DNA of 64,000 nucleotides, taken from the NCBI RefSeq assembly GCF_026151205.1, contig NC_087075.1, positions 5,694,858 to 5,758,857 on the forward strand, given 5' to 3'. The notes beneath the pieces were generated by a model, which saw only the letters and a list, made by a program, of their open reading frames with translations, searched no databases and was not told the origin of the DNA. Source of the stretch: Bolinopsis microptera (lineage: Eukaryota > Ctenophora > Tentaculata > Lobata > Bolinopsidae). Positions 7,820-18,237 of this stretch are shown in pieces; position 1 is the first letter of the stretch, and each line of letters begins with the position of its first letter. Both the position numbers and the translations under genes were made by a program.

Positions 7820-8699
7820 GGGGGTCGCAACGTGATACAACGGATGCCCTAGTGTGGTTGGTTTTATCCGATTTTTTTAGATTTTTATGGAGGTTGTACC
7901 ATTGTAAAACTTACATTGTGACAGTATAGATGGCGAAAAATTTTTGAAAATGGTCCTAACACAGCTTTGATCATAACAATAACATTGGGTGAATAGATTG
8001 GGTGAACAAACTATGAAGCAGGCAATTATATGTGCTCATCCATCATTCTGCATATGTAAGCTCAGTAGTTTAATTGCTGATTCATACTCAATGGTGAATC
8101 GATAGAATTCATGTGTCGGAGATCTCGTGAGAACACCTTTTAATAATTATAGCCCTCAGGATCGCATTATCCCGATCCGGCCGTAATGTGTATTGAGGTA
8201 TGCACTAATTGTAGTGGTGAACGGTTGCAGCTCAGGCTATGTTTCAGTATAACTGTATATCAGAGATCGCAGTATATTTACATTCTACTCGGATTGCAGA
8301 TTGAAATATTTTCCTGTTGGAACCATGACACATGCAGGGGAATACCAAAATATTAATTGTAGTTGTACAACTAATATGATCAATAATTAATAACGGCAAC
8401 GCTAATTTGTCCTTATTGGACTTTATTTTTACGGACATAAGTTAATAGTTGCTGCAAATGCCAAATGCTACAACTACAAGTTAAGCCCTATAAGCGTTCA
8501 TTTTAATGTCCGTTCGATTTAATTTTAATATCCGTTCGAATATTGGCGGACGTTTTAAATTGTAATTAAATAGACCATTGAGCGGTCGCGTTTATTTTAA
8601 TGTCCGCTCAAAATTATTCCCGTTCACATTATTTCCGGTTGCAGTACGGGTAAAATAACGTCCGAATAAAGCTATCCGATAAGCTCAGGCAGAGCTTTC

Positions 8700-9105
8700 G
8701 GACTGCGTAAAACTAAACAACTTGAAACGTTGAAGAACGCCGTTAAGACATCTGTTGTTAACTCACCTAAAACACAAACATACGTCATACAGTCCAATGG
8801 CGAAGAATTCACAGCCAACTGAGCAAGTCATAAGCTCGGAAACGCTCAAAAGCGTAGTAAAACGTGTTGTCGAGGAAGAGGACCGCAGTCTAGTCGCAAC
8901 GTCATTGTATTTGGTCTGTTACAAGGGAGCGAGATATATAGAGAACTTATTGACACAGTTAGCGTGATTTTCCAAAACATTGGACAGAAACCGAAGATTG
9001 TTGAAGCGTGCAAAATTGCCAGAAAATCTAAGGACAATTTAGTTACAGCATCATTAATAAATGAGCAATTACGTTATTCGTTTAAGTTATTGCAAAATAT
9101 TTGAT
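8700..9105 (+). pseudogene. LINE ORF1 fragment captured in left TIR, copy 1
   Basis: Frame-broken stretch matching the middle of the ORF1-like protein at 3724-4597: ETLKSVVKRVVEEEDRS, then further sequence in another frame. It extends past the point where copy 2 is cut by the microsatellite, to SFKLLQNI then stop. It has no coding role here and is carried as TIR sequence. Confidence 0.7.
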
Positions 9106-9639
9106 TCCAATAAATAAAATCCGCCTTGTGCCGCGTGCGCTAATTTACTAATTCTGTACTCGCCTGCGTACACTGTACTGTACAGTGTACAGCAGGAGCA
9201 GGCCTGCAGGCATCATGCTACATGCGATTTTACAAATAATGTTCGACTTCAATTTAGACTTTCAGTTGTTGTAGTTGTACTGTATACTAATTGTGTCGGT
9301 TTATATATTTACCAGGCGGCGCTCAAATTGCATGATCAATAACGCTAATTTGTCCTTATTGGACTTTATTTTTACGGACATAAGTTAATAGTTGCAAATG
9401 CCAGATGCTACAAGTTAAGCACTAGCGTTCATTTTAATGTCCGTTTATTTTAATATCCGTTCGAATTTTGGCGGACGTTTTAAATTGTTAGTAAATAGAG
9501 CATTAAGCGGTCACGTTTATTTTAATGTCCTCTCAAAATTATGGCTACGCCCGTTCACATTATTTCCGGTTGCGGTACGGGTAAAATAACGTCCGAATAA
9601 AGCTATCCGATAAACTCAGGCAGAGCTTTCGGACTGTAA

Positions 9640-10002
9640 AACTGGACAACTTGAAATGTTGAAGAACGCCGTTAAGACATCTGTTGTTGACTCACCTAAA
9701 ACACAAACATACAGTTCAATGGCGAAGAATTCACAGCCAAAGCTGAGCAAGTCATAAGCTTGGAAACGCTCAAAAGCGTAGTAAAACGTGTTGTTGAGGA
9801 AGAGGACCGCAGTCGCAACGTCATTGTATTTGGTCCGTCACAAGGGAGCGAGATATATAGAGAACTTATTGACACAGTTAGCGAGATTTTTCAAAACATT
9901 GGACAGAAACCGAAGATTGTTGAAGCGTGCAGAATTGCCACGAAATCTAAGGACAATTCAGTTACAGCATCATTAATAAGTGAGCTTACGTTATTCGTTT
10001 AA
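9640..10002 (+). pseudogene. LINE ORF1 fragment captured in left TIR, copy 2
   Basis: Open segment of 80 codons (9760-10002), METLKSVVKRVVEEEDRSRN then VIVFGPSQGSE, related to the EEDRTKNVLIFG region of the ORF1 remnant at 3724-4597. The frame runs into the (CTGT)n array right after CGTTTAAG. Copy 1 continues with other sequence at that point, so the array arose at or beside that site. Confidence 0.75.
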
Positions 10003-10513
10003 GTCTGTCTGTCTGTCTGTCTGTCTGTCTGTCTGTCTGTCTGTCTGTCTGTCTGTCTGTCTGTCTGTCTGTCTGTCTGTCTGTCTGTCTGTCTGTCTGT
10101 CTGTCTGTCTGTCTGTCTGTCTGTCTGTCTGTCTGTCTGTCTGTCTGTCTGTCTGTCTGTCTGTCTGTCTGTCTGTCTGTCTGTCTGTCTGTCTGTCTGT
10201 CTGTCTGTCTGTCTGTCTGTCTGTCTGTCTGTCTGTCTGTCTGTCTGTCTGTCTGTCTGTCTGTCTGTCTGTCTGTCTGTCTGTCTGTCTGTCTGTCTGT
10301 CTGTCTGTCTGTCTGTCTGTCTGTCTGTCTGTCTGTCTGTCTGTCTGTCTGTCTGTCTGTCTGTCTGTCTGTCTGTCTGTCTGTCTGTCTGTCTGTCTGT
10401 CTGTCTGTCTGTCTGTCTGTCTGTCTGTCTGTCTGTCTGTCTGTCTGAGCTGTCTGTCTGTCTGAGTGTCTGTCTGTCTGTCTGTCTGTCTGAGTGTCTG
10501 TCTGTCTGTCTGT
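10003..10513 (+). repeat. (CTGT)n microsatellite in left TIR
   Basis: About 510 bp of tandem CTGT with three CTGAG-type interruptions near its right end (10446, 10463 and 10489). Its frame gives a meaningless Cys-Leu-Ser-Val repeat. Confidence 0.99.
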
Positions 10514-15769: not shown

Positions 15770-16432
15770 GGTGGGCTCAAAAGTTTATAAAACTGGTGTT
15801 ATTGATGCAGATGGCGTTGTTTTATTTATAGTTATATGATTATTGAATATTGAGGCTAATTGTGGGAATTGAGAAGCATAGATATTGGGCACATCAAACG
15901 ATTTTTTTGCAGGGCATTTGAACTTCGGTAACAGTAATTTAGAAGTTACCTTGAACAATGTGTTAAAAGTGTCTATTGAGTAAATTAACATCATGAGTTA
16001 TGTCGTTTAATAAGCTTAAGGGCTATTAAAGTCCAAATTGTTTCGAAGCTAATTGTTCGATCAACCGCAAGTTACATGATTATACCACCCCGTCATGGGT
16101 GGGTAGCACTAGCACCAATTTGACACTAAATGGTAATTTCAGAAAAAATAAATCCATGAGTTCTAATTATTATTAATAGTAGGTAAATTCTCGTGCTTAC
16201 TCATTACATAAGAATAATTTATTAGTATAAAAACCGTGATGAATGCAGATTAGCATATATAATTCACATGGCATGACCCAATTCATAATATTAATATTAT
16301 GTTAATATGTTTCATTACCTAGGGACCTCAGCTTTTGTGTTTATAAACAGAATGACAAGTTGAACGCCGCCTAGTAAATATATAGACCACCGTAACTCTT
16401 ACCGTTTTCTTGATTAAGCCGCTTGGAAATTA

Positions 16433-16689
16433 CAGACAGACAGACAGACAGACAGACAGACAGACAGACAGACAGACAGACAGACAGACAGACAGACAGA
16501 CAGACAGACAGACAGACAGACAGACAGACAGACAGACAGACAGACAGACAGACAGACAGACAGACAGACAGACAGACAGACAGACAGACAGACAGACAGA
16601 CAGACAGACAGACAGACAGACAGACAGACAGACAGACAGACAGACAGACAGACAGACAGACAGACAGACAGACAGACAGACAGACAGAC
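16433..16689 (-). repeat. (CTGT)n microsatellite in right TIR
   Basis: About 257 bp of uninterrupted CAGA on the + strand, the mirror of 10003-10513 but half as long and without interruptions. Confidence 0.99.
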
Positions 16690-17060
16690 TTAAACGAATA
16701 ACGTAAGCTCACTTATTAATGATGCTGTAACTGAATTGTCCTTAGATTTCGTGGCAATTCTGCACGCTTCAACAATCTTCGGTTTCTGTCCAATGTTTTG
16801 AAAAATCTCGCTAACTGTGTCAATAAGTTCTCTATATATCTCGCTCCCTTGTGACGGACCAAATACAATGACGTTGCGACTGCGGTCCTCTTCCTCAACA
16901 ACACGTTTTACTACGCTTTTGAGCGTTTCCAAGCTTATGACTTGCTCAGCTTTGGCTGTGAATTCTTCGCCATTGAACTGTATGTTTGTGTTTTAGGTGA
17001 GTCAATAACAGATGTCTTAACGGCGTTCTTCAACATTTCAAGTTGTCCAGTTTTACAGTC
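16690..17060 (-). pseudogene. LINE ORF1 fragment in right TIR
   Basis: Mirror copy of 9640-10002. The 80-codon translation (16690-16932, minus strand) is identical to that of 9760-10002. It is preserved as part of the TIR, not as a gene. Confidence 0.75.
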
Positions 17061-18237
17061 CGAAAGCTCTGCCTGAGTATATCGGATAGCTTTATTCGGA
17101 CGTTATTTTACCCGTACCGCAACCGGAAATAATGTGAACGGGCGTAGCCATAATTTTGAGAGGACATTAAAATAAACGTGACCGCTCAATATAGCTTATG
17201 ACTTGCTCAGTTGGCTGTGAATTCTTCGCCATTGGACTGTATGACGTATGTTTGTGTTTTAGGTGAGTTAACAACAGATGTCTTAACGGCGTTCTTCAAC
17301 GTTTCAAGTTGTTTAGTTTTACGCAGTCCGAAAGCTCTGCCTGAGCTTATCGGATAGCTTTATTCGGACGTTATTTTACCCGTACTGCAACCGGAAATAA
17401 TGTGAACGGGAATAATTTTGAGCGGACATTAAAATAAACGCGACCGCTCAATGGTCTATTTAATTACAATTTAAAACGTCCGCCAATATTCGAACGGATA
17501 TTAAAATTAAAATGAACGGACATTAAAATGAACGCTTATAGGGCTTAACTTGTAGTTGTAGCATTTGGCATTTGCAGCAACTATTAACTTATGTCCGTAA
17601 AAATAAAGTCCAATAAGGACAAATTAGCGTTGCCGTTATTAATTATTGATCATATTAGTTGTACAACTACAATTAATATTTTGGTATTCCCCTGCATGTG
17701 TCATGGTTCCAACAGGAAAATATTTCAATCTGCAATCCGAGTAGAATGTAAATATACTGCGATCTCTGATATACAGTTATACTGAAACATAGCCTGAGCT
17801 GCAACCGTTCACCACTACAATTAGTGCATACCTCAATACACATTACGGCCGGATCGGGATAATGCGATCCTGAGGGCTATAATTATTAAAAGGTGTTCTC
17901 ACGAGATCTCCGACACATGAATTCTATCGATTCACCATTGAGTATGAATCAGCAATTAAACTACTGAGCTTACATATGCAGAATGATGGATGAGCACATA
18001 TAATTGCCTGCTTCATAGTTTGTTCACCCAATCTATTCACCCAATGTTATTGTTATGATCAAAGCTGTGTTAGGACCATTTTCAAAAATATTTCGCCATC
18101 TATACTGTCACAATGTAAGTTTTACAATGGTACAACCTCCATAAAAATCTAAAAAAATCGGATAAAACCAACCACACTACGGATGCCCACCTGTGACCGC
18201 GGGATCGGTCCGATCGGAGGAGAGCCACGTCAATATT

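Follow-up and report, generated by a model that had tools for sequence, protein, structure and literature searches.

A recently mobile DNA transposon with an 11-exon gene and kilobase-long inverted repeats in Bolinopsis microptera, probably of hAT type

The element described here lies at positions 7850 to 18179 of a 64,000-nucleotide stretch of the genome of the ctenophore Bolinopsis microptera (RefSeq assembly GCF_026151205.1, contig NC_087075.1, positions 5,694,858 to 5,758,857, forward strand), the whole of which is referred to as the window. It is probably a cut-and-paste DNA transposon of hAT type that moved recently and is still autonomous, and within hAT it most resembles the hATm branch. 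Its mobility is real, as seen in exact ends, duplications of 8 or 9 bp, near-identical copies elsewhere and empty sites. Autonomy is proposed because the gene is intact and near-identical copies exist.

Element ends and inverted-repeat arms

The ends at 7850 and 18179 and the 9-bp duplication CGGATGCCC were read directly on both sides, in agreement with an earlier note made from the letters of the window. That note had also described an intact DNA transposon with long terminal inverted repeats (TIRs) of 2–3 kb and a many-exon transposase-like gene; the arms measured 3,195 bp on the left and 2,238 bp on the right, and all three traits recur in other copies. The features of the element outside its gene are as follows.

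7850..18179, minus strand: whole element, 10,330 bp; termini TAGTGTGGTTGG...CCAACCACACTA, read directly and shared by copies
7841..7849, no strand: left target-site duplication CGGATGCCC, 9 bp, read directly
18180..18188, no strand: right target-site duplication CGGATGCCC, 9 bp, read directly
7850..11044, plus strand: left inverted-repeat arm, 3,195 bp, part of it duplicated in tandem; from the aligned blocks
15942..18179, minus strand: right inverted-repeat arm, 2,238 bp; from the aligned blocks
10003..10513, plus strand: TCTG tetranucleotide array in the left arm; read directly, arrays counted
16433..16689, minus strand: matching array in the right arm (CAGA on the plus strand); read directly, arrays counted
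9757..9996 (approximate ends), plus strand: ORF1-like protein fragment in the left arm; from BLASTP against the window open reading frame (ORF) 3845-4642

The element begins and ends TAGTGTG...CACACTA. Its arms are 99.6% alike across 800 bp and pair in three aligned blocks of 99.7, 99.6 and 85.7% identity: 7850-8836 with 17193-18179, 9502-10260 with 16432-17190, and an inner block (85.7%) that extends to 11044 in the left arm and to 15942 in the right. Left-arm positions 8837-9501 have no right-arm counterpart because the left arm contains a tandem duplication of ~0.93 kb. TCTG arrays are present in both arms and are unequal in length.

The ORF1-like fragment of the left arm matched window ORF 3845-4642 at 29 of 64 residues (BLASTP, E 2e-14), and similar fragments occur elsewhere in both arms. 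On this sequence likeness, the arms are taken to have acquired part of a gene like that ORF. The ORF itself (265 aa) is ORF1-like by look, had no match in a Pfam search, and is represented by fragments in the arms of the transposon and of its relatives.

Copies in the genome

The 264.65 Mb genome was scanned with the 24-nt terminus, allowing up to 3 mismatches, and with the reversed sequence as control. The terminus was found at 31 places, 30 of them pairing into 15 elements and one being a solo end; the reversed control gave no match in the same scan. Eleven of the 15 pairs (A-K) are closely related to the window element, with lengths of 5.7-14.0 kb, and their ends fit the hAT end [T/C]A[A/G]NG with TAGTG at both termini in 11 of 11. 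The earlier note had named copies with different boundaries as a check on its reading; the other close copies show the same boundaries as the window element.

An intact frame is kept in six of the 11 close copies (A, B, D, E, F and I), in copy D with a 3.4-kb insertion in intron 9. Copy B and the window element differ at one of 2,256 coding bases of the gene, which, like the close match of the arms, speaks for recent movement. The gene is broken in the other five: C and J are frameshifted, H and K are without its first part, and G is without the gene. Within the first 800 bp, identity between the arms of a single element (99.5-100%) exceeds that between its left arm and the window left arm (98.5-99.4%) in nine of nine copies, B to J. 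Copy K (arms 70.7% alike) is an exception, because its right arm is shortened. This pattern suggests that likeness between the arms is maintained inside each element, as though they were homogenised there.

The four remaining pairs are M (25.1 kb), N (22.2 kb), O (6.1 kb) and P (3.4 kb). The transposase had no significant match in M, N or O (best E 0.44, in N), and P retains remnants of exons 1 and 2. Tandem repeats are present in M, N and O. Elements M and N (L029-L034) have the same ends as the window element, long tandem-repeat arms (period 65-71 bp) and nested elements; M carries reverse-transcriptase-like ORFs, and N carries a piece of an ordinary hAT, judged by look, and a transposase fragment (L033:1-132, E 1e-9) like that of F4, a more distant relative treated below.

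Target-site duplications and empty sites

The duplication is exactly 9 bp in nine of the 15 elements (A, B, C, E, H, J, K, M and O) and exactly 8 bp in four (D, F, G and I). Empty sites were found for H (9 bp; 93% across 120 bases, within element N), for O (9 bp; 90.6% and others), for F (8 bp; 87%) and for D (8 bp; 81%, at window 6770-6850, itself a repeat). In the tandem arrays that host J and M there are also related sites that are unbroken and carry the duplication once, and a candidate empty site exists for B (74%). Both lengths are regarded as real, since empty sites support each. Two further matches listed as empty sites, one for I (L023) and one for A in the window, were rejected as the right flanks of those same elements. 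By eye, the target sites have no clear motif.

Transposase gene

The gene lies on the minus strand from 15769 to 11297 and has 11 exons and ten GT-AG introns that join into 752 codons plus a stop, as the earlier note had proposed; comparison with two diverged families, F2 and F3, agrees. All exons are on the minus strand.

15540..15769: exon 1; start codon at 15769
15053..15248: exon 2; lacking in F3
14437..14779: exon 3; donor set by conservation in F2 and F3
14137..14295: exon 4; contains D261; acceptor set by conservation in F2 and F3
13814..13923: exon 5; contains D337
13571..13694: exon 6; contains C366-x2-H369
13238..13353: exon 7; gene model checked against the two diverged families
12799..13035: exon 8; contains R465-W466
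12458..12632: exon 9; gene model checked against the two diverged families
12007..12197: exon 10; gene model checked against the two diverged families
11297..11674: exon 11; contains E683, R695-R697 and the stop codon

A 754-codon model with another splice pair for intron 3 was rejected, as that pair is not conserved in F2 and F3. The two models differ solely in a handful of residues where exons 3 and 4 meet. Alignments A1 and A2, and the searches made with them (PDB, PHROGs, viral and prokaryotic collections), rest on the 754-codon model; Pfam was searched with both.

Sister family F2 (L041) has 88% protein identity to the window protein and keeps the ten introns, with a GT donor at the same place in ten of ten and an AG acceptor at the same column in nine of ten, the tenth lying three bases upstream. 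Family F3 (L042) is without exon 2; its donors are GT in nine of nine, and its acceptors are AG at the same column in six of eight tested (exons 4-11). The lifted frame of F3 is not open, and its protein in alignment A1 was joined by hand. Between the window and F2, identity is 90.6% in exons and 79.1% in introns, the ratio of nonsynonymous to synonymous substitution rates (dN/dS) is 0.26, and differences at the three codon positions number 49, 51 and 114. By these substitution patterns, the 11-exon frame is under purifying selection between families.

Conserved residues and the wider clade

Along the protein the conserved residues run D, D, CxxH, RW, E and a basic cluster, with a spacing of D-76-D-346-E (D261, D337, E683). 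C366 sits 29 residues after D337, R465 and W466 sit 128 and 129 after it, and RRR (695-697) follows E683 by 12-14. R465, W466 and E683 are invariant in five of five aligned families, and D261, D337 and CxxH are kept in the four of four members that cover those positions. A single-exon alignment was dropped, as it superimposed the D1 and D2 fragments.

More distant relatives in the same genome include F4 (29%) and F5 (38%). Exon-wise, the F4 protein had 113 matches in the genome and another relative, L059, had 94; L059 is 31% identical to the F2 protein (E 1e-8). Related transposase exons form a large and diverse clade in the genome for which Pfam has no model, and some members consist of a single ORF, such as that at C1:5440242 (498-aa frame). 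Uncharacterised proteins that carry CHTQ-VER and DTT-NTG motifs are probably common in other invertebrates.

Pattern searches of viral contigs gave 159, 27 and 17 matches for A1, A2 and the L059 piece, none of them confirmed, and no match to CHTQ[AS]VER; in prokaryotic genome contigs there were 92 and 19 pattern matches, none confirmed. The first A1 search patterns were poor, because A1 contains close relatives only. PHROGs returned one insignificant match (phrog_6629, E 0.14, 1 of 3 members).

Assignment of the element and alternative explanations

The element probably uses a hAT-like mechanism. The 752-residue protein would adopt the RNase H-like fold of DDE transposases. D261, D337 and E683 are its putative catalytic residues, CxxH (366-369) would lie at the active site, and R465-W466 would sit in a predicted helical insertion domain. 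By analogy with hAT enzymes, the transposase would bind the element ends, excision would leave hairpins on the donor flanks as with hAT enzymes, and strand transfer would join the element to target strands staggered 8 or 9 bp apart. The arms may acquire foreign DNA and simple repeats and stay alike, and could therefore grow to 2-3 kb.

Several results weigh against a hAT transposon. The window protein (both models) and all tested relatives matched no Pfam family up to E=10, for the window protein neither a THAP domain nor a P transposase core, and a PDB search gave no match. The hAT dimerisation domain PF05699 and an N-terminal BED zinc finger were not detected in the 752-residue protein by Pfam. 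With 150 of 365 candidates scored, PF05699 matched at least 150 places in the genome, and no close copy had one of these on its exon 11; an ordinary hAT from this genome, used as a positive control, matched Hermes at 6.8e-8. Alignments by hhalign to hAT pieces were not sensible (E 0.27, and E 0.4 at full length), and an alignment of the C-terminus only placed E683 on the hAT E at a non-significant E of 0.52. K263 stands where Hermes and Kat1, in the excerpts available of the papers on them, have a tryptophan two residues after the first D, and 10 kb with TIRs of 2.2-3.2 kb is far beyond the usual hAT range as given in the excerpt of PMC3942097. Two of the 15 elements are without an exact duplication: in N the 9-bp repeat is shifted by one base, and in P there is none. 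Finally, dN/dS among close copies (no synonymous differences in one, then 0.47, 0.73, 1.75 and 1.75, with 1-13 differences) is uninformative, since there are too few differences.

Membership of hAT is accordingly unproven, because neither PF05699 nor the BED finger was detected and one hAT tryptophan was not seen, and the element is not filed under hATm, because PF05699 is reported for hATm-6. The earlier note had seen no clear fit to one superfamily; this holds insofar as profiles fail to place the protein, while hAT, of hATm type, is indicated by the order of the key residues, by the 5'-TAGNG end and by duplications of 8 or 9 bp. We regard hATm as the closest known kind and the likeliest home of the element, and lean, with some reserve, towards true membership.

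The strongest rival is an undescribed superfamily, distinct from hAT and P yet related to both, proposed because the genome holds a large clade with no profile link to known transposases. It draws on the failure of all tested members in Pfam and of the protein in PDB, on the want of a confirmed relative in the viral and prokaryotic collections searched, on the roughly one hundred diverse matches to each of two related query proteins, and on the prevalence of 9-bp duplications, outside classical hAT. Against this, the residue order, spacing, end consensus and 8- or 9-bp duplications match the hAT and hATm descriptions in the cited excerpts, and we consider it unlikely. The same low weight attaches to an extended version, which is speculative: the unprofiled clade (the window family plus the DTTSANTG/ACRHH relatives) might form a distinct superfamily with the mechanism of hAT, with strand transfer loosely spaced at 8 or 9 bp and arms acting as growing traps for foreign DNA and satellites.

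A Mutator-like (MULE/Rehavkus) transposon is improbable. The habits of MULEs given in the excerpt of PMC6446971 (long TIRs, duplications of 8-11 bp, captured gene fragments and satellites near the TIRs) resemble those seen here: the arms hold an ORF1-like fragment, the siblings M, N and O hold tandem repeats, and Rehavkus has a minisatellite. No MULE/Mutator transposase family was matched in Pfam up to E=10 and no PHD finger was found by Pfam, and the large D-E spacing here contains RW, a key pair of hAT in the published descriptions. Least probable is a domesticated host gene, or a dead element that looks intact. The low copy number (15 paired elements) and the five broken close copies speak for it; against it, the gene lies within mobile ends with duplications at 11 different sites, and six copies keep the frame. 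The earlier note had named a profile match to a non-transposase host family as a check, and no Pfam family was matched up to E=10.

The element, apparently intact and recently mobile, belongs to an intron-rich clade that escapes Pfam and offers a testable case for an undercharted hAT branch. It raises the questions of why the stagger varies between 8 and 9 bp, and of how arms grow by capture and yet stay alike. A profile built on the clade would probably name many proteins that are now uncharacterised.

Other features in the window

Further ORFs were seen outside the element. A 763-aa ORF (32401-34692, minus strand) resembles a Penelope-type reverse transcriptase by eye and matched no Pfam family up to E 0.001, and a long ORF at 20194-21356 (plus strand) has the same look. 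Two near-identical ORFs in opposite orientation (24005-24589, minus strand, and 34810-35355, plus strand) have a signal-peptide-like start and, one of them having been searched, no Pfam match. An ORF at 50279-51010 (plus strand) matches Patched (PF02460, E 6.9e-5).

Comparison with known transposons

The comparisons that follow are with excerpts of the papers cited. Rehavkus, Dada, Kolobok and KDZ were considered from published descriptions and set aside. In MULEs, duplications are 8-11 bp and TIRs up to hundreds of bp, and in Rehavkus a minisatellite adjoins the 3' TIR (PMC6446971). Dada (PMC3706591) shares a DDE transposase with C/DxxH, in elements of 4.7-11 kb; it targets small-RNA genes with duplications of the 6-bp type, whereas the sites here are diverse and the duplications 8-9 bp.

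Hermes has the key residues D180, D248, R318, W319 and E572 (PMC6027215), a CxxH with H268, and basic residues K585, R586 and R588 (PMC4763223); in Kat1 the corresponding residues are D310, D377, C402/H405, W576 and E895 (PMC6027215, PMC4763223). The window protein has the same layout of D, D, CxxH, RW, E and basic cluster, the positions being matched by order and spacing, with no significant alignment. Classical hATs are 2.5-5 kb long with TIRs of 10-25 bp and 8-bp duplications (PMC3942097). Like them, the elements here have a TAGNG end, and several exons are known in some hATs (BuT2 has five; PMC3942097, PMC6027215, PMC4763223). Their duplications are of the 8-bp kind in four of 15 and of 9 bp in nine of 15, and a BED finger and the hAT dimerisation domain were not detected. 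Next to the description in PMC3942097, many introns together with long TIRs are unusual, as the earlier note had remarked.

The hATm family, proposed as a fourth family of hAT, has ends TAGGGTG...CACCCTA and more than 74 elements in Repbase; duplications are 8 or 9 bp in 28 members, two members have TIRs of 417 and 575 bp, and PF05699 is reported for hATm-6 (PMC6004678). The window element differs from this description in its TIRs of 2.2-3.2 kb with simple repeats and captured DNA, and in that PF05699 was not detected. It agrees with the description in having duplications of 8 or 9 bp and TIRs far longer than those of other hATs, and its terminus, TAGTGTG, matches TAGGGTG at six of seven bases.

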